NCBI GenBank assembly: GCA_028873975.1
Contig: JAPPMO010000107.1
Coordinates: 55,147-119,146, forward strand
Length of the DNA: 64,000 nt
DNA from: Chloroflexota bacterium
GTDB taxonomy: Bacteria; Chloroflexota; Anaerolineae; Aggregatilineales; Phototrophicaceae
Direction of reading: 5' to 3'
Of the stretch, positions 18,682 to 30,682 are shown in pieces; positions within the stretch are counted from its first letter, which is position 1, and each line of letters starts with the position of its first letter. Made by a program: the position numbers and the translations under genes. The notes below the pieces were generated by a model, which saw nothing but the letters and a program-made list of their open reading frames with translations, did not search any database and had not been told where the DNA came from.

Positions 18682-19869
18682 ATGAAATGGTCGCAAGTCA
18701 AATATCAGCCGGAGCGGACGCTGACTTATCTGGGCAGCCCCAGCGTTGTTCGCCTTGAAGACGGCGCTTTGCTGGTCTCGCATGATTACTTTGGTTTGAA
18801 AGGCTGCCCCAAAAACCATGAGGGGGAGGAAAGCCTGACAAGTATCTACCGCTCGGAAGATGATGGCGAGACCTGGGTCAATATCACGCATATTATGAAT
18901 TGCTATTGGAGCAGCTTGTTCATTCACGATGACGCGGCGTACATCCTGGGTACATCGCAGCAATACGGTTCGATTGTGATTCGGCGCAGCGTAGACGGCG
19001 GATTTACCTGGACGCACCCAGCCGATGAACGCAGCGGCATGCTTTTCCGAGGCGGCTATCATCACGAGCCGCCTAACTATCATTGCGCTCCCGTGCCGAT
19101 CGTCCGCCACGAGGGACGTCTGTACCGCGCTTTTGAAGATTGCGACCCGCCGGGCTGGGGCAACTTTCAAGCCGGCGTAATTTCCGCGCCAGCGGATGCG
19201 GACTTGCTGGATGCCGCCAACTGGACCATGAGCAACAAGATGCCATTTGATCCCGCCTGGATACCGAGCGAGTGGGACCCGGCCGACGCCGCAGCTCCGG
19301 GCTGGAGAGAAGGCAATATCGTGGCGGCGCCCGATGGCCAACTCTGGAATATCATGACTTATGAGGCGGGTTCGATTGTGAAAGAAGTTGCGACTCGCCT
19401 GAAAATTGAAGATGAGGGCAAGACCCTTGCGTTCGATCCCGCAAGCGGTTATGTCAACTTCCCGGGCAGCAAGGCCAAATTCACCATCCGGCGCGATCCG
19501 CAAACGGGCAAATATCTGTCTTTGGTGAACAACCTGGCGGATCCTGATACCTTGCGCGAGATGGCCGAGGGAGACCTGAAAGCCCAGGGGCACCGCGGCA
19601 AGCACCCCATGCGGCAGCGCAATGTGCTATCGTTGAGCGCGTCGGAGGACCTGTGGAATTGGCGCCTGGTCAAGACGCTAATGCGTGACGACACAGGCTT
19701 GGAGCCGGCGCCGTCTATTTTGTTGACCGGTTTCCAGTACGTCGATTGGCAATTCGATGGCGATGACCTGATTTATGTGGTGCGTACAGCATATCGCGGC
19801 ACGCGCAACTTCCACGATTCCAATCGGATCATTTTCCGCCGATTGCGCAATTTCCGAGATTTACTTTAG
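18682..19869 (+). CDS. Sialidase-fold (BNR/Asp-box) protein, first of a tandem pair
   Basis: 395 residues without signal peptide. Asp-box repeats (S-x-D-x-G-x-T-W) are visible as SEDDGETW and SVDGGFTW, so the protein is a beta-propeller of the sialidase superfamily. The opening SPSVVRLEDGALLVSHDY aligns with the start of sialidases, but the catalytic arginine of their FRIP motif is replaced (YLGSP). True sialidase activity is therefore doubtful. Aromatic- and His-rich stretches (NYHCAPVPIV) may form a different active site. The gene is followed after 19 bases by a close paralogue. Confidence 0.75.
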   Translation: MKWSQVKYQPERTLTYLGSPSVVRLEDGALLVSHDYFGLKGCPKNHEGEESLTSIYRSEDDGETWVNITHIMNCYWSSLFIHDDAAYILGTSQQYGSIVIRRSVDGGFTWTHPADERSGMLFRGGYHHEPPNYHCAPVPIVRHEGRLYRAFEDCDPPGWGNFQAGVISAPADADLLDAANWTMSNKMPFDPAWIPSEWDPADAAAPGWREGNIVAAPDGQLWNIMTYEAGSIVKEVATRLKIEDEGKTLAFDPASGYVNFPGSKAKFTIRRDPQTGKYLSLVNNLADPDTLREMAEGDLKAQGHRGKHPMRQRNVLSLSASEDLWNWRLVKTLMRDDTGLEPAPSILLTGFQYVDWQFDGDDLIYVVRTAYRGTRNFHDSNRIIFRRLRNFRDLL

Positions 19870-19888
19870 TGTAGGAAAGCAAGAACAG

Positions 19889-21016
19889 ATGATCTGGCGC
19901 GAAGTCAAATACCAACCCGAGCGTACGTTAACCTATCTGGGAAGCCCGAGCATCGTTCGTCTGGCGGACGGCGCGCTGGTAGCCTCGCACGATTATTTTG
20001 GCTTGAAGGGATGCCCCAAGAATCACGAGGCTGAAGAAAGCTTGACGAGCATCTATCGGTCGGAAGACGACGGCATGACCTGGGTCAACGTGACGCATAT
20101 CATGAACTGCTATTGGAGCAGCTTGTTCACCCATCGCGGCAGTTTGTACATTCTTGGCACATCCCAGCAATACGGCTCGATCGTGATCCGCCGCAGCGAT
20201 GACGGCGGCTTCACCTGGACGCATCCCGCGGATGCCGCGTCTGGTCTACTCTTTCGCGGCGGTCCCTATCGCGACGCGCCCAATTATCATTGCGCGCCGG
20301 TCCCTGTGCTGGAGCATCAGGGACGACTGTACAAAGCCTTCGAAGACGCGGACCCGCCTGTTCATGGACCGAGCTTTCACTCTTGCGTGATCTCGGCGCC
20401 TGCGGAAGCAAACTTGCTTGACGCCTCGAACTGGACGATCAGCAACAAAATCCCCTTTGATCCCGACTGGGCGCCAGCTCAATGGGATCGGCTCGAACGG
20501 CCCTGCTGGCTGGAGGGCAATGTGCTGGAGACACCGGACGGGGAACTGTGGAATATCTTGCGGCTAAACGCCAGCCCTATGGTGAACCGAGCCGTAATCG
20601 TCAAGATTGAGGATGACGGCCGAGCAATTTCATTTGATCCGGAGACCGGGTTCATCGATTTCCCGGGCGGCGGGACCAAGTTCAATATTCGCTACGATGC
20701 GCAAACGGGCTTTTACCTCGCCTTGGTCAACAACGTTACAAATCCCGAATGGACCCGGCAACGAAATATCTTGTCCCTGAGCGTTTCGCGCGATTTGCGC
20801 CACTGGCAGGTCCTCAAAACCTTAATGGCGGACGAGAGTGGTTTGTCCGCGGAAGACTCGATGCGCCTTACAGGATTTCAGTACGTCGATTGGCAGTTCG
20901 ACGGCGATGATATCATCTATCTCGTGCGCGCTGCTTATCGTGGAGCCATCCGCTATCACGACTCGAACCGCATCATCTTCCGCAAGCTGGAAGGTTTTCG
21001 TTCGTTCTTACCCTGA
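19889..21016 (+). CDS. Sialidase-fold (BNR/Asp-box) protein, second of a tandem pair
   Basis: 375 residues, clearly homologous to the preceding protein over its whole length: shared blocks include VKYQPERTLTYLGSPS, HIMNCYWSSLF, GTSQQYGSIVIRRS and TGFQYVDWQFDGDD. It carries the same Asp boxes (SEDDGMTW, SDDGGFTW) and the same loss of the FRIP arginine. It lacks about twenty residues found in the first copy near DTLREMAEGDLKAQG. The ATG at 19889 matches the paralogue's start. The pair looks like an old tandem duplication with retained conserved core, pointing to related but different substrates. It ends 14 bases from the convergent GH32-like gene. Confidence 0.75.
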   Translation: MIWREVKYQPERTLTYLGSPSIVRLADGALVASHDYFGLKGCPKNHEAEESLTSIYRSEDDGMTWVNVTHIMNCYWSSLFTHRGSLYILGTSQQYGSIVIRRSDDGGFTWTHPADAASGLLFRGGPYRDAPNYHCAPVPVLEHQGRLYKAFEDADPPVHGPSFHSCVISAPAEANLLDASNWTISNKIPFDPDWAPAQWDRLERPCWLEGNVLETPDGELWNILRLNASPMVNRAVIVKIEDDGRAISFDPETGFIDFPGGGTKFNIRYDAQTGFYLALVNNVTNPEWTRQRNILSLSVSRDLRHWQVLKTLMADESGLSAEDSMRLTGFQYVDWQFDGDDIIYLVRAAYRGAIRYHDSNRIIFRKLEGFRSFLP

Positions 21017-21030
21017 AATTTGCCAGCTGC

Positions 21031-22668
21031 TCAGGCGGGATCGGCGTCCGTATCCCAGATGCTGCGCATTTGCCAAGCGTCTAGTCTCGCGGCCGTCGTG
21101 GACCCTCCCTGGGAGCGCATGGAAACGCCAAGGCTGTCCTCGCGGCCGGGATAGACCCGCGTCGCCAGGCATTGTCTGCCGTTGACGAATACCTCGACCA
21201 CACTGCGGTCGATAAAAACGCGCAATTGCAGAGGCTCGTCTGGCGCGATATACACAGGCGCGGATTCCGGCGCGCGCGAAAGCGCGTCCGGCAGCGTCGA
21301 CGAATACGATGTATCTATTGTGATCACGCTTTCATAACGCTCTGGCAGCTTTTGCATGGCGACCGAGCTGGCGTTCATAGCCGCGGATTTGGAAAGCCGC
21401 TGTCGATAGCGGCGCCCGCGATGTTTGTAAAAGGCGATGCGCGTGAACTCTTCTCGCTTGGGTGAGCGCAGCACGTTCAATTCGACCATGGGCGCGTCGC
21501 CGGGATCAAGCTCCAGCGACAGTTCCATCGCATTGCCCTGAATACCGTCCAATACGATTTCCTGGTTGGCTGGAAGCGTGACGGGTCCCGACTGCCGATG
21601 TTCATGGCGCAGCGACTCGATGCCGCCGGCCGGCTCCATGAGCAAGCGCTTGTCCTCGTCCAGGGTGAGCAGGCGCGGCAGGGTCATGATCTGGTTCCAG
21701 CCGCGTGTAGGCATGCCCTGGTTCATGTTGAAAATGACGATGACGCCGCCCTTGCCGTCGGGTGTGGCTGACGGCGCATGGACGCCTGATGGCGTCGAGG
21801 GTCCGAAGTTGAACAAGCCGCCGTCGCTGACGACGAATTTGTCGCGATCCTTGTCATAGTCCCCCAGCAGGTACTGCCCGCCGGTCATGTGGCTGTAAAT
21901 GAGCAAGATATGCTTGTCATCTCCAATCGGCCAGAAATAGGGACAAGCGCCATCGTCGCCGACCACTGTGTACTGGTCCTGCTCGACAAAAGGATGCAGG
22001 TAATCCCAATTTATCAGATCAGTGGACCGGAATAGAAAATTGGCGCGGATTTGCTTGCGGTCCGGACCTTCAGGCAAAGTCCCGCCGGACAGGGCATAGT
22101 AGAACCCGTCTTTCTCCCATATACAGGGGTCGAAGACAGTGTAGGGCAAGGGCGGATCCCCTTCTTTTGCCATCGGGATGACGGCCCCGTCCCCCAGCTT
22201 TTCCCAGTTCAGCAAAAGCGGATCCGAGGAGGTGGCGACCATATTGCCGATCTTGGTACCGTGATACATGGCGATGACGCGATCGTCCTCTACCAGCGCG
22301 GAACCCGAATAGCAGCACTCTTCCGGATGGGGATAGATCGCATAGGGCAAATCGCGCCAGTGGATCAAGTCGTCGCTGACGGCGTGCCCCCAATGTTGAC
22401 GACTGTCTTCGGGGGGATAGGCTTGGTAAAACAGGTGCCAGCGCCCTTGCCAAAAGCAGAGTCCATTGGGGTCGTTCAAGGTGCTTTCGGGATTGACGTA
22501 GTGATAAAGCGGACGATGGGAGTCCGCAGCGAGTTTCCTGCGCGATTCGTCAAAGCGCTTTAGCAGCGAATTCTCGCGCAGTTGCCGCTCTTGTTCGGCT
22601 AAGTCTCCAGCAAAGCTATAACGGGGAACAGCCGACGTGTAATCCGGCTGGTTATCTGTTTTCACCAT
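21031..22668 (-). CDS. GH32-like glycoside hydrolase (fructosidase fold)
   Basis: 545 residues. A five-bladed propeller followed by a C-terminal beta-sandwich (FIDRSVVEVFVNGRQ) matches GH32. The nucleophile block is present as TLNDPNGLCFWQGRWHLFYQ (Asp66). The transition-state block RDP reads FDP (179-181), and the acid/base block normally containing Glu-Cys reads GACPYFW (240-246), so the catalytic glutamate is not where expected. It may act on a different sugar or use another proton donor. No signal peptide, so intracellular. The start follows GGAAAGAG. It is the last gene of the minus-strand set running from the chaperonin. Confidence 0.82.
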   Translation of the reverse strand: MVKTDNQPDYTSAVPRYSFAGDLAEQERQLRENSLLKRFDESRRKLAADSHRPLYHYVNPESTLNDPNGLCFWQGRWHLFYQAYPPEDSRQHWGHAVSDDLIHWRDLPYAIYPHPEECCYSGSALVEDDRVIAMYHGTKIGNMVATSSDPLLLNWEKLGDGAVIPMAKEGDPPLPYTVFDPCIWEKDGFYYALSGGTLPEGPDRKQIRANFLFRSTDLINWDYLHPFVEQDQYTVVGDDGACPYFWPIGDDKHILLIYSHMTGGQYLLGDYDKDRDKFVVSDGGLFNFGPSTPSGVHAPSATPDGKGGVIVIFNMNQGMPTRGWNQIMTLPRLLTLDEDKRLLMEPAGGIESLRHEHRQSGPVTLPANQEIVLDGIQGNAMELSLELDPGDAPMVELNVLRSPKREEFTRIAFYKHRGRRYRQRLSKSAAMNASSVAMQKLPERYESVITIDTSYSSTLPDALSRAPESAPVYIAPDEPLQLRVFIDRSVVEVFVNGRQCLATRVYPGREDSLGVSMRSQGGSTTAARLDAWQMRSIWDTDADPA

Positions 22669-22737: not shown

Positions 22738-23493
22738 CTAATGCGTCGTATAACCGCCGTCGACAACAATGCCTGTGCCTGTGATATAGCTGGCGTCGTC
22801 AGAGGCCAGGAAGGCGGCAACGCTAGCAATTTCTTCCGGCTGTCCTCGCCGCGCCAGCGGGACCTTTTGCAGGAAGGCCTCATTCACTTCGTCAGGCACC
22901 TCCCGGTTCGCCGGCGTATCAATCGTACCGGGAAGAATCGCAACGACGCGGATTTGCGGCGCCAGTTCCAGCGACAGCGCGCGTGTCAATGACAGGACGC
23001 CGCCTTTGGACGCTTGATAGGCGGCGCTGCCGGTCAAACCGACGATGCTGTGTACGGAGGCTGTATTCAAGATGACCCCGGCCTTGCTTTTCAAAAGCTG
23101 TGGTATCGCCAGTTTGCTCGCCTGCCATACCGGGCGCAGCGTAACATCAAGAGTCCGCTGCCAGTCGTCAGCAGTCGTTTCCAGCGCCGTGGCGCCCCGC
23201 GCCCAGAAGGCGTTGTTATGCAGAATGTCCAGCCCGCCATAGGTTGTCACGGCGCAGTCGATCATTCTGACCAGGTCGCTTTCCAGGCTCACGTCGGCTT
23301 CTACAAAACGCGCCTCTCCACCTAAGCTGCGGATTTCGCCGGCGCAGTCTTTTCCTCGGGAGACATCAATATCGGCGATGACAACATGGGCGCCTTCGCG
23401 GGCAAAGCGCAATGCGGTAGCGCGGCCGATGCCTGAGGCCGCCCCGGTGATGACCGCAACTCTACCCTCTAGCCTCATCGCGATATTCGTCAA
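22738..23493 (-). CDS. Short-chain dehydrogenase/reductase
   Basis: 251 residues of classical SDR: TGAASGIGRA (nucleotide-binding glycine motif), NNAF for the NNAG motif, catalytic Ser in NTASVHS and Tyr-x3-Lys in AAYQASKGG. It uses NAD(P) to oxidise or reduce an alcohol/ketone in the cytoplasm. A TTG at 23493 is chosen because GAGGAGGGAG lies directly upstream at good spacing; ATG 23478 (MRLEGRVAV) is the alternative. It lies 36 bases from the upstream MBL gene and 69 bases before the GH32-like gene, probably one transcript. Confidence 0.92.
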   Translation of the reverse strand: MTNIAMRLEGRVAVITGAASGIGRATALRFAREGAHVVIADIDVSRGKDCAGEIRSLGGEARFVEADVSLESDLVRMIDCAVTTYGGLDILHNNAFWARGATALETTADDWQRTLDVTLRPVWQASKLAIPQLLKSKAGVILNTASVHSIVGLTGSAAYQASKGGVLSLTRALSLELAPQIRVVAILPGTIDTPANREVPDEVNEAFLQKVPLARRGQPEEIASVAAFLASDDASYITGTGIVVDGGYTTH

Positions 23494-23529: not shown

Positions 23530-24387
23530 CTATTCCGGGTACGGTTCAAAGCGCCAACCATCCGCAGCCTCGCGAACATAACCCAAGCCCGGGAAGGGAA
23601 AATGATAGCCATGAATGAGCGCGTTCCGCTCAGCGGCGCGTCGCAACAGCGCCCGGCGCGTTTCGATACCTGTTTCCGGCAGTTCATCCCAGGCAGGATG
23701 CCAACTGGTGTTTTCGATATGAATGGGCAGATCCATGGTGTCGGCGACGCAGATCAGCGACCTGCCCCCCGAGGTCGCCTCGACGGAAATATGGTTGCGC
23801 GTATGCCCGGGACTGGTCAGCGTACGGACGCCGGGCGCAATCTCTTCACCCGCATCAATCAGTTCCAGTTGACACTCGATAGCTTTTAAGCAATGCCGGG
23901 CGAAGCGGATATCTTCGGAATGAGCCATCTTGCTGATCTCCTCATCGCCAAGGTTGACCCAGTACTCCCATTCTCCGCGCGCCATCACATGTTTGGCGTT
24001 GGGGAAGATCATGGAATCGTCTTGGGCGACGCCGCCGCAGACGTGATCGCGATGACCGTGCGTGAGGACGACGATGTCGATATCGCCGGGGTTGTATCCC
24101 GCGCTTTCGAGACCGGGCGCCAACAGTCCCAGGTGCGGATCAAAAAACGGTCCGCCGCCGCTGTCGATCAAGATGCGCGAGTCGCCCGTATCGATCAATA
24201 GGCAATTGCATTGCAAGTCGTAATGATCGGGAGAGATGCCATGCGACTTGAAGGCAAGCGCCAAGTCTTCGGCGGCAGAACCCGCAAAAAATGTTGGCAG
24301 CAATTCAGCGCCGATCGGCTGAATGCCGTCGCTAATCGAGACGCACTTGTATTGACCGATATCGAAGGGATAAGTTCTGGCTGTCAC
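23530..24387 (-). CDS. Metallo-beta-lactamase-fold hydrolase (GTG start)
   Basis: 285 residues. The zinc-binding HxHxDH is VLTHGHRDHVCGG (His110, His112, Asp114, His115), with further ligands in SPGHTRNHISV and IHGYHFPFPG. It resembles the quorum-quenching-lactonase/hydrolase branch of the MBL fold, which opens lactones or thioesters. Translation begins at GTG 24387 with GGAG about eight bases upstream; the Shine-Dalgarno is embedded in CCATATATGGAG. It lies 54 bases downstream of the propeller gene and 36 bases upstream of the SDR. Its substrate could be a sugar lactone made by the SDR; inference only. Confidence 0.88.
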   Translation of the reverse strand: MTARTYPFDIGQYKCVSISDGIQPIGAELLPTFFAGSAAEDLALAFKSHGISPDHYDLQCNCLLIDTGDSRILIDSGGGPFFDPHLGLLAPGLESAGYNPGDIDIVVLTHGHRDHVCGGVAQDDSMIFPNAKHVMARGEWEYWVNLGDEEISKMAHSEDIRFARHCLKAIECQLELIDAGEEIAPGVRTLTSPGHTRNHISVEATSGGRSLICVADTMDLPIHIENTSWHPAWDELPETGIETRRALLRRAAERNALIHGYHFPFPGLGYVREAADGWRFEPYPE

Positions 24388-24441: not shown

Positions 24442-25392
24442 CTAAAGTTCGTACTGAACAATCCCTTTGCCAGCCAGACCGAGGAACATGGCTTCGCCGC
24501 TGGGATCGGGAACCAAGAACGCGGTTGGCGGGTCTTCCGCTTCTGCAAGAAATTCCCAATTTTGTCCGGCATCGCGGGATCTCAAAACGCCGTCTTCCGA
24601 AAGCGCATAAATCTCGGCGCGGCCATCGGGCTTGTACAGTATCTGCAATTGGTTGACCGATCCGGGTAGCGAGTTGGGCGCGCTTCGATCCCAGCTTGCG
24701 CCGTCGTCGCAAGAGATGAAAAGGCCCTTGCCTTCGGTTCCGGCGAAGAGCAAACTCTCATCCTTGCCGATTGCGTATGCCAGGCTCAATATCGGCGCGA
24801 ATTCGCTTGGGAATCCGCTTTCTCGCCAAGCGCGCCCGCCGTTAGTGCTGCGGTACAAGCCCGTTTCGGTACCGGCGAGGATCGTCTCGTCTTCCCGCAA
24901 ATGTGGCGAAGCTGCCAGACAAAGGACGCCCAGGTCGAACAAGCCGAAGTTCCAAGGCTGCCAATTCACGCCGCGGTCAGTCGAAGAGAATACGCCGTCT
25001 TCCATAGTTCCGGCCAGCATCAGCCCGTCCTGCGCGAAATATGGCGATATAGCCAGCGTCGTGAAGAGGGGAGGAGGAGCGGGGAACTTGGCGGCGAACC
25101 AGGTATCGCCGCCGTCGCTGGATCGCAGAATGCCTCCCTTGACCGCGGCAAACACCGTTCGGTCCTGGTCAAATGACGGCGATACCGCAACAGCCGTCGC
25201 AGCCATTTGAGCGCCTTGTTCCTCGACAATGGGCAAGGACTCCCAGCAATCGCCGCCATCTGTAGAGCGATACAAGCCCCCTGATGTAGCGGCGAAGCAA
25301 AGGCCGTCTTTGGCGAATCCCGGCGACGCTGCCAGCGCATAGGCAGTTGCGTCGGATCCCGTTAATTCCAGGCTGATTCTTTCACCCCGCAT
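24442..25392 (-). CDS. Seven-bladed BNR/VPS10-type beta-propeller protein, cytoplasmic
   Basis: 316 residues made almost entirely of repeats of about 43-45 residues. Each has SPxFxxD near the start and an Asp-box such as YRSTDGGDCW, LRSSDGGDTW, FSSTDRGVNW, YRSTNGGRAW, FISCDDGASW and LRSRDAGQNW. The last blade ends in GIVQYEL without an Asp box, giving seven blades. No signal peptide is present, unusual for Asp-box propellers of the Ycf48 type, which act in membranes or outside. It starts eight bases after the chaperonin-like gene, so the two are very likely co-expressed. No enzymatic residues are recognisable; a scaffold or assembly role is likely. Confidence 0.82.
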   Translation of the reverse strand: MRGERISLELTGSDATAYALAASPGFAKDGLCFAATSGGLYRSTDGGDCWESLPIVEEQGAQMAATAVAVSPSFDQDRTVFAAVKGGILRSSDGGDTWFAAKFPAPPPLFTTLAISPYFAQDGLMLAGTMEDGVFSSTDRGVNWQPWNFGLFDLGVLCLAASPHLREDETILAGTETGLYRSTNGGRAWRESGFPSEFAPILSLAYAIGKDESLLFAGTEGKGLFISCDDGASWDRSAPNSLPGSVNQLQILYKPDGRAEIYALSEDGVLRSRDAGQNWEFLAEAEDPPTAFLVPDPSGEAMFLGLAGKGIVQYEL

Positions 25393-25400
25393 GTGTCTCC

Positions 25401-27065
25401 CTACCCGGGTTGGCGCGCGATCTCCGGCGTCTGGCGATGCGCGATGACATCAATAGTCAGCATCATCCCGGCGGTTAGCACGGCATTTCGCAAGGCGGCT
25501 TTCATCACGGCGGCGCTGTCAACAAGCTCCCCGCCGTCGGCAATCGCCCCGCTGATGACATCAAAGCCAAAGCCATTGTCCAGGTCCGAGAGCTTTGCTA
25601 TGACCTCGCCCGGTTCGTACCCGGCATTTTCGTAAATGGCGCGCGCGGGCTCCGCCAGGGCATCAAATAGAATACGATGGGCTGCGCGCTCGTCGGGGTC
25701 ATCGCCGGCTTGTGATCTGCTTTCCAAGACGCTGCGGCAGTTCAGGTAAGCCATGCCGCCGCCCGGCAAAACACCGTCGCTGACCGCGGCGCGCATCGCG
25801 CTGGCGGTCTTTTCCGCCAACGTTTTTAGCTGATCGATTTCGATTTCGGACAGTCCGCCGATCCACAAAGTCGCCGAGCCGCCCATCAGTCGACCAATTC
25901 GCTTTTGAAGCGTTTCTCGCATTTGCGGGTCGTCGCTTTGTTCCAGCCAGCGTTGCAGGCGACTGATATGTTGTCGTAACACCCGTGGATTGCCCTTGCC
26001 GCCAATGACGCCGAAATTGTGGGCGCTCGCCCAACCGCGCCGCGCTCGTCCGAAGTGTCCATAGGTCACGTCTTTAAGACTGTCTCCCGCCGCCTCAACA
26101 AGCGTTTTGGCATCGGTCGCTATTGCAATATCTTCAAAGGCGGCCGCGCGTTCATCGGCGTTGGCGCCGGGTCCCCGTACCGCCATGACCTGGAAGTTCT
26201 TGAGTTTGCCGTTCGCCATCATTAAGCCGGCCATCGCTTCCGCGGAGAGTTCGGCGGCCACCAGGATCAGTTTTTCGATCTTTTGGTCGACGGCGATTTC
26301 AAGCATCGGCATGATGTGTCGCGGATCGTTGACTTTTGAATCCACGAGCACCAAGGCGGGCTCTTCGTACACAGTTTGCAATTCGACGCGGTCGACGATC
26401 ATATCGCGCGAAAACAGGCCGCTGTCCCAAGCCATGCCTTCAACATATTCCCGCCGCAAAATTCGGCTGTGATCTTTACGAATGTCAAGCCGTCCATAGG
26501 CGCCGATGATATCGAAGATTTCTCCCAGCAATTTCGCAAGCTCCGCGTCATGACAGATTGATTCCGCAACTTGCGCCAGCTTGCGCTTGCCTTCGACAGT
26601 GTAGGTCTCTTCGTCGAGCGCGACGAGCGACTTTTCCAAGGCTCTTTCCAGATGATGTCGCAGGCGCATGGCGTTCCCGCCGGATGCCAGGTAATGCAAG
26701 CCGCCATTGTATATCGCAGCCAACAACACCGCCGCGGTAGCGGAACCGTCCCCCATACGTTCGTTCTGTCGGCAAATCAAGGCGCGGGCCAGCATGGCAC
26801 CGACATCGGCGTCGCGGCGATGCAATTCTATGACGCGACGGGCAATGATGCCGCCATCATCGAGCACCTCGGGACTATCTTTGTTTTCAATGAGGGAGGT
26901 GACGGCTACCGTTCGCGCAGTTGGACCCAGCGTCGGTCGAATCGCGGACACAAGGGTATTGAGGCCGCGCTTAATGTTCTCCTGCGCTTGGGGCTGGAAA
27001 ACCAGACCGGGGCGATAAGTTTTGCGAGAATGAAAGGGCGCCTTTTCGCTCATGCGATCATCCAT
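25401..27065 (-). CDS. Divergent GroEL/Cpn60-family chaperonin
   Basis: 554 residues, full length for Cpn60. ATP-site blocks align without gaps: TLGPTARTV (45-53), VLDDGG (Asp52 equivalent), GDGSATA (105-111, Asp87 equivalent) and VLPGGGMAY (432-440). In the GroEL hydrolysis block RVEDALHATRAA this protein reads LAEKTASAMRAA, so the catalytic Asp398 position is Lys419. The apical substrate-binding stretch is also changed (DSGLFSRDMIV for DRGYLSPYFIN) and there is no GGM-rich tail. No groES is nearby. Start chosen at ATG 27065; ATG 27053 (MSEKAPF) and TTG 27071 are possible. It heads a possible operon with the beta-propeller gene. A specialised, slow or non-hydrolysing paralogue is the likeliest reading. 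Confidence 0.85.
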   Translation of the reverse strand: MDDRMSEKAPFHSRKTYRPGLVFQPQAQENIKRGLNTLVSAIRPTLGPTARTVAVTSLIENKDSPEVLDDGGIIARRVIELHRRDADVGAMLARALICRQNERMGDGSATAAVLLAAIYNGGLHYLASGGNAMRLRHHLERALEKSLVALDEETYTVEGKRKLAQVAESICHDAELAKLLGEIFDIIGAYGRLDIRKDHSRILRREYVEGMAWDSGLFSRDMIVDRVELQTVYEEPALVLVDSKVNDPRHIMPMLEIAVDQKIEKLILVAAELSAEAMAGLMMANGKLKNFQVMAVRGPGANADERAAAFEDIAIATDAKTLVEAAGDSLKDVTYGHFGRARRGWASAHNFGVIGGKGNPRVLRQHISRLQRWLEQSDDPQMRETLQKRIGRLMGGSATLWIGGLSEIEIDQLKTLAEKTASAMRAAVSDGVLPGGGMAYLNCRSVLESRSQAGDDPDERAAHRILFDALAEPARAIYENAGYEPGEVIAKLSDLDNGFGFDVISGAIADGGELVDSAAVMKAALRNAVLTAGMMLTIDVIAHRQTPEIARQPG

Positions 27066-27180
27066 GGGCAAGACGTGTGGACAACAACATGACGCGACAA
27101 TTCATATCTTGCTCGGACACGAGACGATCCCAGGAGATCTGCTACGCTGCCGCCAAGGCATCGCCCTGCGTTCGCCATCA

Positions 27181-28065
27181 CTAGCCCTTGATCGCGCCGC
27201 GCATGATGCCTTCAATCAGATAGCGCTGTCCAAAGAGAAAGATAATGATTACGGGGACCAGCGATACGACCACGCCCGCGAGAACGACCGAGATGCTGCC
27301 GGTCATCATATAACCCTGCAACTGAAAGATGCCGATGGTGATGGGGTAATTCTCGTGCTGCAGGAAGATAAGCGGCCGGAAGAATTCATTCCAATGGAAG
27401 TTAAAGCTGAGTATCGCCAGCACTGCCAAGCCCGGTTTCACGAGTGGGAGATAGACCTGACGGAAGAGTTGCCATTGGTTGGCGCCGTCGATGAGCGCCG
27501 ATTCTTCAAGCTCTATGGGAATGGTCAGATAATACTGGCGCAGCAAGAAGGCGCCAAAAGCCGTCGGCGTCGCCGGCAGGATCAGCGACCAGTAGGTATC
27601 GTAGAGCCCCAAGTTGCGGATCAAAATGAAAACAGGGATGACGGTGGCTTGTATGGGAATCATCATTGTGGCCAGCACCACCCAGAATAGCAGGTCCCGC
27701 CCTTTGAACTCGAGCCGGGCGAAGGCGTAACCGGCCAGCGCTGCCGTGATTAATTGGCCCAGCACTGTGCCCCAGGTGATGATGGCACTGTTGAGGATCT
27801 GACGGGCGAAAGGCACCGTCTCGAATACTTTTGCGTAGTTTTCGACTGCCAGGTCGGTCGGCAGCCACTTTGGCGGCACGGTAAAAGAGTCGACGCCGCT
27901 GCGCAGGGAGGTCGAAATTGTCCACATAATCGGCGCGAGGATGACGACGCTCATGACCGCGAGGATGAACAACGGGACCCAGCGGCCCAGTTGGTGCGAT
28001 AAGATTTGCCGCCGATGCTCCGCTGCCGATATGTCCCCGGGCATTCTGGTCGCATTGCTCGCCAT
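27181..28065 (-). CDS. Carbohydrate ABC permease, MalG/UgpE type
   Basis: 294 residues, six predicted membrane segments, with the binding-protein-dependent permease EAA-type loop in ESALIDGANQWQLFRQVYLPLVKPGLA (about residues 200-225). The C-terminus ends LIEGIMRGAIKG, typical for MalG-like partners. AGGGGAACACTG precedes the ATG. It is the third gene of a binding protein-MalF-MalG operon. No ATPase is encoded here, so it probably shares a MsmX/MalK-type ATPase from elsewhere. Confidence 0.93.
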   Translation of the reverse strand: MASNATRMPGDISAAEHRRQILSHQLGRWVPLFILAVMSVVILAPIMWTISTSLRSGVDSFTVPPKWLPTDLAVENYAKVFETVPFARQILNSAIITWGTVLGQLITAALAGYAFARLEFKGRDLLFWVVLATMMIPIQATVIPVFILIRNLGLYDTYWSLILPATPTAFGAFLLRQYYLTIPIELEESALIDGANQWQLFRQVYLPLVKPGLAVLAILSFNFHWNEFFRPLIFLQHENYPITIGIFQLQGYMMTGSISVVLAGVVVSLVPVIIIFLFGQRYLIEGIMRGAIKG

Positions 28066-28098: not shown

Positions 28099-29058
28099 CT
28101 ATTGATAGAAAACGCGATTGCGCCAGAGCCACATCTGTACAGCCGACATGGCCAGAATCATGAGAAATACCACGATGGCGATTGCGGATCCGTAGCCGAA
28201 TTCGATGTCTTTGAAGGCGTGTTCGTACATCACCATCACCAGCGTTCGGCTGGCGTTGCCCGGTCCGCCGCGGGTCATGATATAGGGTTCGTCGAAGACC
28301 TGCAGCGCGCCGATGACGCCGGTGACGGTCGCGAAGAGGATTTGCGGGCTCAACAAGGGGATGACGACCGACCACAAGCGCCGCAATCCCTGCGCGCCAT
28401 CAACATCGGCGGCATCAAGCACTTCTTGTGATAGATTCGCCAAGCCGCCGAGGAAGATCAGGAATGTGAAGCCCAGGTTGCGCCAGGCGGAGATGATGGC
28501 GATGGAAATCATCACCAGATCAGAATTTGTCAGCCAGGGGATCTGCGGCAAGCCCAGCAAAGTCAAATAATAGTTCAAAGGACCAAATTCTTTATGAAAG
28601 ATATATCCCATAAAAACAGCGACAGACGCGCCGGACATCAAAAGCGGCAGAAAATAGGCAGTGCGGAAATAATAGCGCAGCCAGATGCGGTTAATGCGAT
28701 GAACCGCCAGAGCCAGGATCAGGCCGAGAGATACTTGGCTGGCGACGGCTAATACCGTGAACTTAAGCGTATTGCCCAAACCGACGATGACACGCCGATC
28801 AGCCAGCAATCGCTCGAAGTTGTCCAGCGCGATAAAGTCGGGCGGTTTGAAGATATTCCAGCGATATAAGCTGAGGCCGAATGAGACGAAGATGGGCCCG
28901 GCCGTGAAAATAAAGATGCCGAGCAAGGTTGGCAAGAGGAAAAGATAGCCGAGCAAGGCGCGCCTGCGCCGCAGCCCTTCCATGGTGTCCTGGAAGAGCC
29001 AATGATATAACCCGCCGATTCCGCCGATATTGTTGCTGGATAGAGATTTTCCTGACAT
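28099..29058 (-). CDS. Carbohydrate ABC permease, MalF/UgpA type
   Basis: 319 residues with six hydrophobic segments. The coupling loop is in EVLDAADVDGAQGLRRLWSVVIPLLSPQ (about residues 220-245). The early region FGLSLYRWNIFKPPDFIALDNFERL is standard for sugar permeases of this type. AAGGACACGGC precedes the ATG. It forms the membrane channel with the MalG-like product, whose gene starts 33 bases downstream. Sugar specificity cannot be read from the permease. Confidence 0.93.
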   Translation of the reverse strand: MSGKSLSSNNIGGIGGLYHWLFQDTMEGLRRRRALLGYLFLLPTLLGIFIFTAGPIFVSFGLSLYRWNIFKPPDFIALDNFERLLADRRVIVGLGNTLKFTVLAVASQVSLGLILALAVHRINRIWLRYYFRTAYFLPLLMSGASVAVFMGYIFHKEFGPLNYYLTLLGLPQIPWLTNSDLVMISIAIISAWRNLGFTFLIFLGGLANLSQEVLDAADVDGAQGLRRLWSVVIPLLSPQILFATVTGVIGALQVFDEPYIMTRGGPGNASRTLVMVMYEHAFKDIEFGYGSAIAIVVFLMILAMSAVQMWLWRNRVFYQ

Positions 29059-29133: not shown

Positions 29134-30564
29134 TTAGTCGTCGCCGTAGTATTGCGGTTGACGGTTGGTCAGCGATTCCAGTTCCGCTTGCATTTCGTCA
29201 AGCGCTTGCTGCGGTCCCATCTCGCCGGACATGGCGAAGCCGGTATAGGTGGTGAAGATGGTGGTCATCGGGTTCGACCAAGGCGGCGCCGGGATGGGTG
29301 ACGTGGACGGATGATCGTCCAGCGTGCCGTAAAAGACGTCGCTGTTGGCGGGACCCGTGCTTTCGAAGGCGTCGGCCTGGCTGTAGGAGCGGCGCGAGGG
29401 CGTGGTGATGATGACCGGATTGAAGAAAATGCTGCTCTGGAAGCCTTCGTGGCTGACTTCGATTTTCATGAAATCCCAGGCTTCATCGGGCGCGGTCGAG
29501 GTGGTGCTCAGCCAGTGGCCGCCGGTGCCAAACTGATGCTTCTGATTGCGCCAGTTCGGCCAATACTGAACATCGAAGTCGCCTTTTGCCATGCCCTCGT
29601 TGCCGAGGCGCCCAGCCCAGAAGCCCCCAGCGGGCGTCATGCAGAGCAAGCCGGTCGAATAGAAGCCGGTGAGAGTCTGGCCCGTGCCCATGGCGATATC
29701 GGGCGTGACGCCTTCCTGCCACAGGTCAACGACCAGTTGCAGCGCCTCGACTACTTCGGCGGAATTGGCGACTGGTTCGCGCCAGCGGAAGCCGCCGCCG
29801 CGTCCGTCTGCCGCCATATCACCTTCGTAGTAGCCGTCCCAGACCCAACTGCCGCCCGGGGCGCGTTCCTCGGTATAGAGGTTGCCGCCAGCCACGAATA
29901 TCCAGGGCATCCAGCTTCCCCAGAGTCGGTTGGTCCAGGCGTAGCCGAAGACCTCGGTATTGCCGGAGTCGTCTTTCTTGGTTGTGCCGCGGGCGATCTC
30001 GAGGAAGTCGTCTTTCGTCCACTCTTCACCCGGCACTTCAAAACCGTTCTCTGCCAATACATTGGTATTGAAGTACATGTTGGCGGCATTGAAGTCGCGC
30101 GGCGGCTCGTACAAGCTGCCCTCGTACATCATGGCTTCGGTCAATGAGGGGTGGACATCGGAGAAGAAATCGGTCCAGAAGTCCTGGTCGGGATCGCTGG
30201 TGATGCGGTCGTCAAGCGGCGCCGCCAAACCTTGACCCGCGAACAGCTGGCAAGCCTCAGTCGCGGCATAGCCGACGTCGATCGACTCGCCAGCCGCCAC
30301 CAGCGCCAGAATCTTGGCCGCCACTTCTTCGTGGTCGATACCTGTGAGGACAACCCACTCGACATTCACGTTGGGGTTGCGCGCCATCTGAATGTCGGCG
30401 ACTGGCTGCAGCGTATTGTCATCGAGACCGGCCGTCTGCACCTTGATCGTCACCATATCCTGCGCGATCACGCGTACCGGCAAACCCGACATGACGAGCC
30501 CGGTTCCGCCGGCCGCTGCCATCTTCAGCAGATCGCGGCGACTCATTTTCTTTTCTGCGCTCAT
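29134..30564 (-). CDS. Extracellular sugar-binding protein with Tat signal (SBP_bac_1)
   Basis: 476 residues. The start reads MSAEKKMSRRDLLKMAAAGG, a twin-arginine signal, with cleavage likely near VIAQDM; no lipobox. The mature protein has the family 1 pattern: VNVEWVVLTGIDHEEVAAKILALVAAGE near the start and STTSTAPDEAWDFMKIEVSHEG near residue 375. The ATG at 30564 has a textbook AGGAGG seven bases upstream; the frame continues upstream without support. Tat export implies folding before secretion. First gene of the sugar importer operon. Confidence 0.9.
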   Translation of the reverse strand: MSAEKKMSRRDLLKMAAAGGTGLVMSGLPVRVIAQDMVTIKVQTAGLDDNTLQPVADIQMARNPNVNVEWVVLTGIDHEEVAAKILALVAAGESIDVGYAATEACQLFAGQGLAAPLDDRITSDPDQDFWTDFFSDVHPSLTEAMMYEGSLYEPPRDFNAANMYFNTNVLAENGFEVPGEEWTKDDFLEIARGTTKKDDSGNTEVFGYAWTNRLWGSWMPWIFVAGGNLYTEERAPGGSWVWDGYYEGDMAADGRGGGFRWREPVANSAEVVEALQLVVDLWQEGVTPDIAMGTGQTLTGFYSTGLLCMTPAGGFWAGRLGNEGMAKGDFDVQYWPNWRNQKHQFGTGGHWLSTTSTAPDEAWDFMKIEVSHEGFQSSIFFNPVIITTPSRRSYSQADAFESTGPANSDVFYGTLDDHPSTSPIPAPPWSNPMTTIFTTYTGFAMSGEMGPQQALDEMQAELESLTNRQPQYYGDD

Positions 30565-30682
30565 GTTTCCTCCTGAAAAATTATTTTCTGAACTTGTGGA
30601 TAAACCGGTTTTCATCGCCTCGGGCATCACCTCCTCATTATTCAGTCATATCCAGTTGCCTAGCCAATCAACTGCTCAAGCA

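Follow-up and report, generated by a model that had tools for sequence, protein, structure and literature searches.

The Cpn60-like chaperonin paralogue (Cpn60L) encoded at 25401..27065 on the reverse strand of the window (the whole stretch of 64,000 nucleotides of Chloroflexota DNA analyzed here) is, judging by sequence comparison, a member of a large and little-noticed Chloroflexota chaperonin family that lacks GroEL Asp398 and has a dedicated β-propeller gene. The reading that we favor, with a probability of about 0.5, is that Cpn60L would be a paralogous ring that binds nucleotide, hydrolyzes it slowly or not at all, and forms one unit with the propeller encoded just behind it. This reading rests on the Cpn60 sequence and predicted fold, the loss of Asp398 with retention of Asp87 and the phosphate loop, the lack of a separate GroES gene for Cpn60L, the evidence of purifying selection, and the pairing of the two genes.

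The Cpn60L open reading frame has 556 codons from a TTG at 27071 and 554 from the ATG at 27065 (554 amino acids), with a further in-frame ATG at 27053. Residues 42 to 544 match Pfam Cpn60_TCP1 (PF00118) at 120.9 bits (cutoff, 34.3), placing the protein in this superfamily, and the score against the GroEL equivalog TIGR02348 is 325.7 bits, below the cutoff of 582.1. The best sequence and fold matches are to group I chaperonins and not to thermosome/CCT, which argues against membership of group II or III. The 50 PDB fold matches listed for the AF2 monomer model (mean pLDDT, 90.9) are GroEL/Hsp60-type chains of group I; TM scores are 0.81 to 0.86 against GroES/Hsp10-bound subunits and 0.57 to 0.63 against most other GroEL chains listed, although the prediction method itself may favor such a GroES-bound-like shape. 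Pfam, PDB alignments and the AF2 fold thus bear out the full-length group I Cpn60 gene of the preliminary description, at 28% identity to E. coli GroEL.

In the two PDB alignments shown, LAEKTASAMRAAV of Cpn60L lies opposite the VEDALHATRAAV type of segment, and because there are no gaps in this region, GroEL Asp398 falls on Lys419 (codon checked at 25809..25811, reverse strand; the family alignment agrees), as the preliminary description had proposed. The equivalents of Asp52 and Asp87 are also present in the window protein, as it had stated, and the codons of two Asp residues at the GroEL Lys51 and Asp52 positions (LDDGG) lie at 26856..26861 on the reverse strand, placed by alignment and by counting on from the translated stretch. 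Among the loci found, the five close orthologues (L016 to L019 and L027; 90 to 95% identical to the window protein) all have Lys at 398, and dN/dS of the window gene against them is 0.11 to 0.14; since the Lys is shared and the ratio is low, Lys419 is not a sequencing accident, and by the same ratio the gene is under purifying selection. The claim that a single hydrolysis residue had been lost from an otherwise intact GroEL was too narrow, as the equivalents of Lys51, Thr90 and Asn479 differ as well. A described loss of apical substrate residues holds for positions 199, 203, 204 and 264 (Leu, Asp, Met and Ala in the window protein) but not for 234, 237, 241, 259 and 263, which are mostly still hydrophobic. 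The GGM tail is indeed absent, but its absence is not diagnostic, because two of the four canonical GroELs read from the phylum (L143 and L144) lack it too.

For the wider family, contigs were scanned with an alignment of the five copies from the source genome, yielding 80 loci, the best 80 of at least 182 confirmed relatives, and 298 genomes of the class, when searched, added 30 loci, for a total of 110. A protein of ≥400 residues was obtained from 109 of the 110 which, with the five copies of the source genome, gave 114 aligned members; these contain near-duplicates, including the window's own locus (L096), and clustering at 85% identity left 78 nonredundant members. The scan used two DNA patterns, neither involving position 398; one spans D87 to T91 and specifies Ala at position 90, which partly predetermines the counts of Asp87 and of Ala90 among the 80 loci. 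The class search scored no more than four candidates in each genome, and class-wide copy numbers are therefore not taken from it. L061 (broken frame, 135 amino acids) is in no count, and L062 (cut, 440 amino acids) is in the residue counts but not in the tree or propeller counts; L045 was omitted from the tree, and L044, L045 and L084 were omitted from pair distances. Almost all loci are labeled as Chloroflexota groups, and a few (L051, L065 and L070) are labeled otherwise.

Asp is absent from position 398 in all 114 aligned members, which include the best 80 of at least 182 relatives: Arg occurs in 74, Glu in 14, Ala in 11, Lys in 7, Tyr in 3, Gln in 2, and Thr, Ser and His in 1 each. The 78 nonredundant members have Arg in 57, Glu in 9, Ala in 7, Gln in 2, and Lys, His and Tyr in 1 each, and show the same residue picture as the 114. 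Across the full set, Asp87 is retained in every member, Asp495 in 113, Gly88 in 112, the TLGP motif in at least 112, and Thr91 in 110. The GroEL Lys51 position is Asp in 113 of 114, Thr90 is replaced by Ala in 111 and Asn479 is replaced by Asp in 108. Position 52 is variable (Asp in 48, Asn in 30, Ser in 18, Lys in 16, Thr and Ala in 1 each), and neither Asp52 nor Asp398 is present in 66 of the 114. We take Asp52 to be the other GroEL residue needed for ATP hydrolysis; a literature search for this requirement found no paper. The 35 members that did not come from the DNA-pattern scan give the same result, with Asp398 in none, Asp87 and Asp51 in all 35, and Ala90 in 32. On the GroES/substrate face (helices H and I and positions 199, 203, 204 and 264), Tyr199, Tyr203, Phe204 and Val264 are lost, hydrophobic positions of helices H and I are kept, and Asn265 is retained in 56 of the 78 nonredundant members.

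A quick tree of 98 rows has Arg as the main state of a large clade, inside which the Lys of the window and the Ala of its sisters arise. The sister group (11 loci, 65 to 70% identity) has Ala in 9, Thr in 1 and Ser in 1, and Lys is confined to the window's own subclade among the 114 aligned members, occurring also in L138 among more divergent paralogues. Conservation of Lys therefore holds for the five close orthologues but not for the wider family, and Lys as a meaningful state was rejected, given Arg as the main state on the tree. The 17 divergent paralogues from the class search (L126 to L142) all have Asp87, and one (L140) has Asp398; the remainder have Arg (seven), Glu (five, including L132 and L136) or Ala, His, Lys and Gln (one each). 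A search of the phylum gave eight loci (L152 to L159, of which L159 repeats L129), and six of them (L153 to L158), each belonging to a different class of the phylum from that of the window, have Asp398. Relatives with Asp at this position thus exist among more divergent paralogues but not among the orthologues seen, and because such paralogues retain Asp while the large clade has mainly Arg, the loss of Asp398 looks derived on this alignment and tree.

The source genome (4.46 Mb, 119 contigs) encodes one canonical groES-groEL and five divergent Cpn60 paralogues, C67 (the window gene), C96, C9, C3 and C88, with Lys, Arg, Glu, Arg and Arg, respectively, at position 398. The canonical groEL retains VEDAL and the GGM tail, and the sole Cpn10 match in the genome adjoins it, so that no groES belonging to Cpn60L was found there. 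The C3 copy is followed by a PhyH gene. Within the genus, all 31 genomes searched have at least one Cpn60L and 30 have at least two. The earlier interpretation, a chaperonin that binds ATP and turns it over slowly or not at all, gains from the family-wide loss of Asp398, the canonical groES-groEL elsewhere and purifying selection, but it had missed the several pocket changes and the propeller partner.

This partner, an Asp-box β-propeller gene at 24442..25392 (reverse strand), starts 9 bp past the Cpn60L stop. Its product matches Pfam BNR at 38.9 bits (cutoff, 27) and has repeated Asp boxes in an alignment (A7) of the window propeller with 33 of 40 others, placing it among Asp-box/BNR proteins, and its score of 35.9 bits against PRK13684 (YCF48) is far from the cutoff of 326. 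The model (316 residues; mean pLDDT, 94.4) has seven blades by reading of the strands, and the structures closest to it in fold include those of GH74 xyloglucanases and YCF48 (solved YCF48, TM 0.65 to 0.69). YCF48, a photosystem II assembly factor with seven blades, is likewise an Asp-box propeller of about 300 residues; unlike YCF48, the window partner has no signal peptide visible by eye and lies behind a chaperonin gene. Conservation among the propellers is concentrated in blade 3, where 21 of 46 columns exceed 3.5 bits, compared with 1 to 13 columns in the other blades (blade limits taken from the model).

The next gene 3′ encodes a propeller of this YCF48-like type at 82 of the 108 loci that could be read, 81 of them recognized by a script and one, L055, added because its propeller reading frame overlaps; among nonredundant readable loci it was present in 54 of 72 and not found in 18. 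The two genes are separated by ≤30 bp or overlap in 48 of 53 nonredundant loci measured, a 4-base overlap being the most frequent value, and these gaps are the smallest possible because reading frames were started at the first possible start codon. In the 31 genomes of the genus (source genome included), every one of the 51 propeller matches with E ≤ 1e-40 sits immediately 3′ of a Cpn60L match on the same strand. Cpn60L matches at E ≤ 1e-140 number 102, and the 51 with a strong propeller behind them are a lower bound, because the C88 propeller falls under the threshold. The three best propeller matches in the source genome are those behind C67, C96 and C88, and the fourth, a weak one, lies in a 1,082-amino-acid frame. 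For a set of 51 Cpn60L-propeller pairs, distances correlate at r = 0.72, partly through species history, where the best of 1,000 permutations reached 0.25, and nearest neighbors agree in 33 of the 51. In the genus, no propeller was seen away from Cpn60L at E ≤ 1e-40, while Cpn60L exists without a propeller, and the propeller would thus be an accessory protein or a client. Half of the 102 genus matches have no strong propeller, and Cpn60L therefore does not always need one. The propeller link is also independent of the loss of Asp398, since L153 and L157 have both Asp398 and a propeller behind the chaperonin gene.

Members of the Glu398 clade (the type of C9) have no propeller where the locus is readable, and another protein of about 280 to 340 residues is encoded behind the chaperonin. 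These downstream proteins are 40 to 54% identical to that of L071 (L071 2486-3481), which has no Pfam match at E 1e-3; C9 itself is at a contig end. A Pfam scan of 17 downstream proteins matched no family in more than two of them, and alignment A5 covers 17 of the 27 loci in which no propeller was found. Behind the divergent Cpn60 genes of L130 to L137 and L141 are long propeller-containing frames of about 575 to 710 codons from stop to stop, many of them cut, which are possibly double propellers. An apparent Cpn60L-propeller fusion in L045 (a 769-amino-acid reading frame) was taken as a frameshift and dropped, because the propeller matches lie in other frames. Cpn60L, a propeller and permeases also occur together on contigs labeled Actinomycetota and Acidimicrobiia (L065 and L070); because these two loci pair up within the Chloroflexota clade, the cassette may have been transferred or the contigs misbinned.

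Cpn60L and its propeller lie among genes of one direction, in an ABC importer/GH32 operon. Directly upstream on the reverse strand are an ABC importer permease (27181..28065; Pfam BPD_transp_1, 55.3 bits), a second permease (28099..29058; BPD_transp_1, 51.7 bits) and a probable solute-binding protein of the importer (29134..30630), named by reading and position, with no Pfam match at E 1e-5. Downstream of the propeller, on the same strand, follow genes for a metallo-β-lactamase-fold protein (23530..24387; Lactamase_B, 59 bits), a short-chain dehydrogenase (22738..23493; adh_short_C2, 215.7 bits) and a GH32 glycosidase (21031..22668; Glyco_hydro_32N, 139.7 bits). The five close orthologues have the same gene order from solute-binding protein to GH32, as do the sister loci, with variations and cut contigs. 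An importer link as a general rule was rejected: among 63 readable nonredundant loci, a permease is adjacent upstream in 27 and within 3 kb in 4, with other genes in 32. The nonpermease upstream genes (31 of 42 such reading frames scanned) include those for glycosidases, sulfatases and unrelated proteins. Beside GH32 on the opposite strand, the gene at 19775-21016 scores 29.7 bits against BNR_2, short of the cutoff of 31.4, and perhaps encodes another propeller protein. Scanning for promoters and terminators returned slightly more sites than shuffled sequences did and was not relied on, and a plasmid tblastn search returned only matches of <60% identity, those listed being mostly labeled groL.

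The nearest functional precedent is a laboratory mutant. Asp398 lies on helix M of GroEL, which shuts over the nucleotide pocket on ATP binding, and the D398A protein shows normal ATP binding and 3% ATPase while still encapsulating and folding proteins (PMC3326522). The Cpn60L family resembles D398A in the loss of Asp398 with Asp87 and the phosphate loop kept, but it is natural, usually has a basic residue at 398, and has further pocket changes and another partner gene. Because Asp87 and the phosphate loop are kept and Asp398 (often also Asp52) is lost, and given this precedent, the family should bind nucleotide and close, and reopen slowly; by this analogy, a slow ATP turnover of Cpn60L fits the behavior of D398A. 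Cpn60L would bind ATP and close but hydrolyze only rarely, so that it would serve as a holdase or as a cage with a long dwell time; the propeller would be its dedicated adaptor (or client), and the pair would help to mature or assemble operon products, here an ABC importer and glycosidases. The variation in operon context across loci counts against this scheme. A bolder version, which we regard as improbable, is a GroES-free machine in which ATP is bound once for a long closure, a single-chain seven-bladed propeller serves as adaptor or as a substitute for the heptameric GroES lid, and several copies per genome give individual nutrient-uptake operons a maturation chamber each; a sevenfold on-axis lid is weakened by the position of most propeller conservation in blade 3.

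It is possible, if on balance unlikely, that the propeller is instead a dedicated client, folded by Cpn60L before it does the work of the operon, such as sugar or peptide binding. The 51 of 51 strong genus propellers behind Cpn60L, with half of the Cpn60L copies lacking one, make the propeller seem dependent on the chaperonin. Eukaryotic CCT folds WD40 and other propellers, and the mTOR complex subunits mLST8 and Raptor are β-propellers. CCT is described as a key factor for mTOR complexes (PMC6599039). Against a client role, a canonical GroEL is present, and clades without a propeller retain the same altered chaperonin. Nor are related propellers such as YCF48 known to need a private chaperonin.

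A still-active ATPase, in which Asp51 replaces Asp52 and Asp398 and the basic residue of helix M contacts the nucleotide, is a rather unlikely alternative to slow or absent hydrolysis, although Asp51, nearly invariant (113 of 114) while position 52 drifts, could take over catalysis. The 11 of 93 rows with Lys52 include none with a basic residue at 398 and nine with Glu, a hint from the alignment that positions 52 and 398 may be in contact, but this charge pattern arose independently only three times (sign test, median P = 0.25), and neither position ranks among the columns that covary most with the other. Five divergent members moreover have Asp at 51, 52 and 398 (L153 to L158 except where 52 differs; LDD and AED segments), which means that Asp51 did not necessarily evolve as a substitute for Asp398. 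An alignment error, with another Asp filling the Asp398 site in this divergent segment, is very improbable: the two PDB alignments shown are gapless here, the 114-member alignment agrees, and across helix M (385 to 412) Asp occurs in more than 10 rows at 390, 401 and 409, with a maximum of 39 of 114 at one place. That Cpn60L is a decaying duplicate without function, as its low identity to E. coli GroEL and its lost conserved residues might suggest, has a negligible probability; it is contradicted by the selection test (dN/dS of 0.11 to 0.14 against five orthologues), by the presence of copies in every genus genome (at least two in 30 of 31), and by the conserved partner and gene order.

Among known systems, canonical GroEL/Cpn60 (TIGR02348) shares with Cpn60L the full-length fold, phosphate loop and Asp87, and Arg452 and an acidic residue at 461, which we take to be inter-ring contacts of GroEL, are mostly kept. 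It is set apart by Asp398, Lys51, Thr90 and Asn479 (absent, Asp, Ala and Asp, respectively, in Cpn60L), a groES neighbor and the GGM tail. The nearest described case found is that of chlamydial GroEL2 and GroEL3, additional, diverged chaperonins that accompany a single canonical GroEL and are changed in regions related to ATP (PMC1892554). Cpn60L scores only 103.2 and 112 bits against their NCBIfam cutoffs of 600 and belongs to a different family. We know of no propeller partner for GroEL2 or GroEL3. Five phyla are given as having multiple copies in a review on atypical chaperonins of type I, and Chloroflexota is not one of the five (PMC5904260); a search for literature on Chloroflexota chaperonins with propellers, with most subscription journals outside its coverage, found no paper. 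A large natural family of chaperonins without Asp398 joins a field in which the purpose of ATP hydrolysis has been probed with the D398A mutant, and such chaperonins gain a partner gene other than GroES that is open to direct testing.
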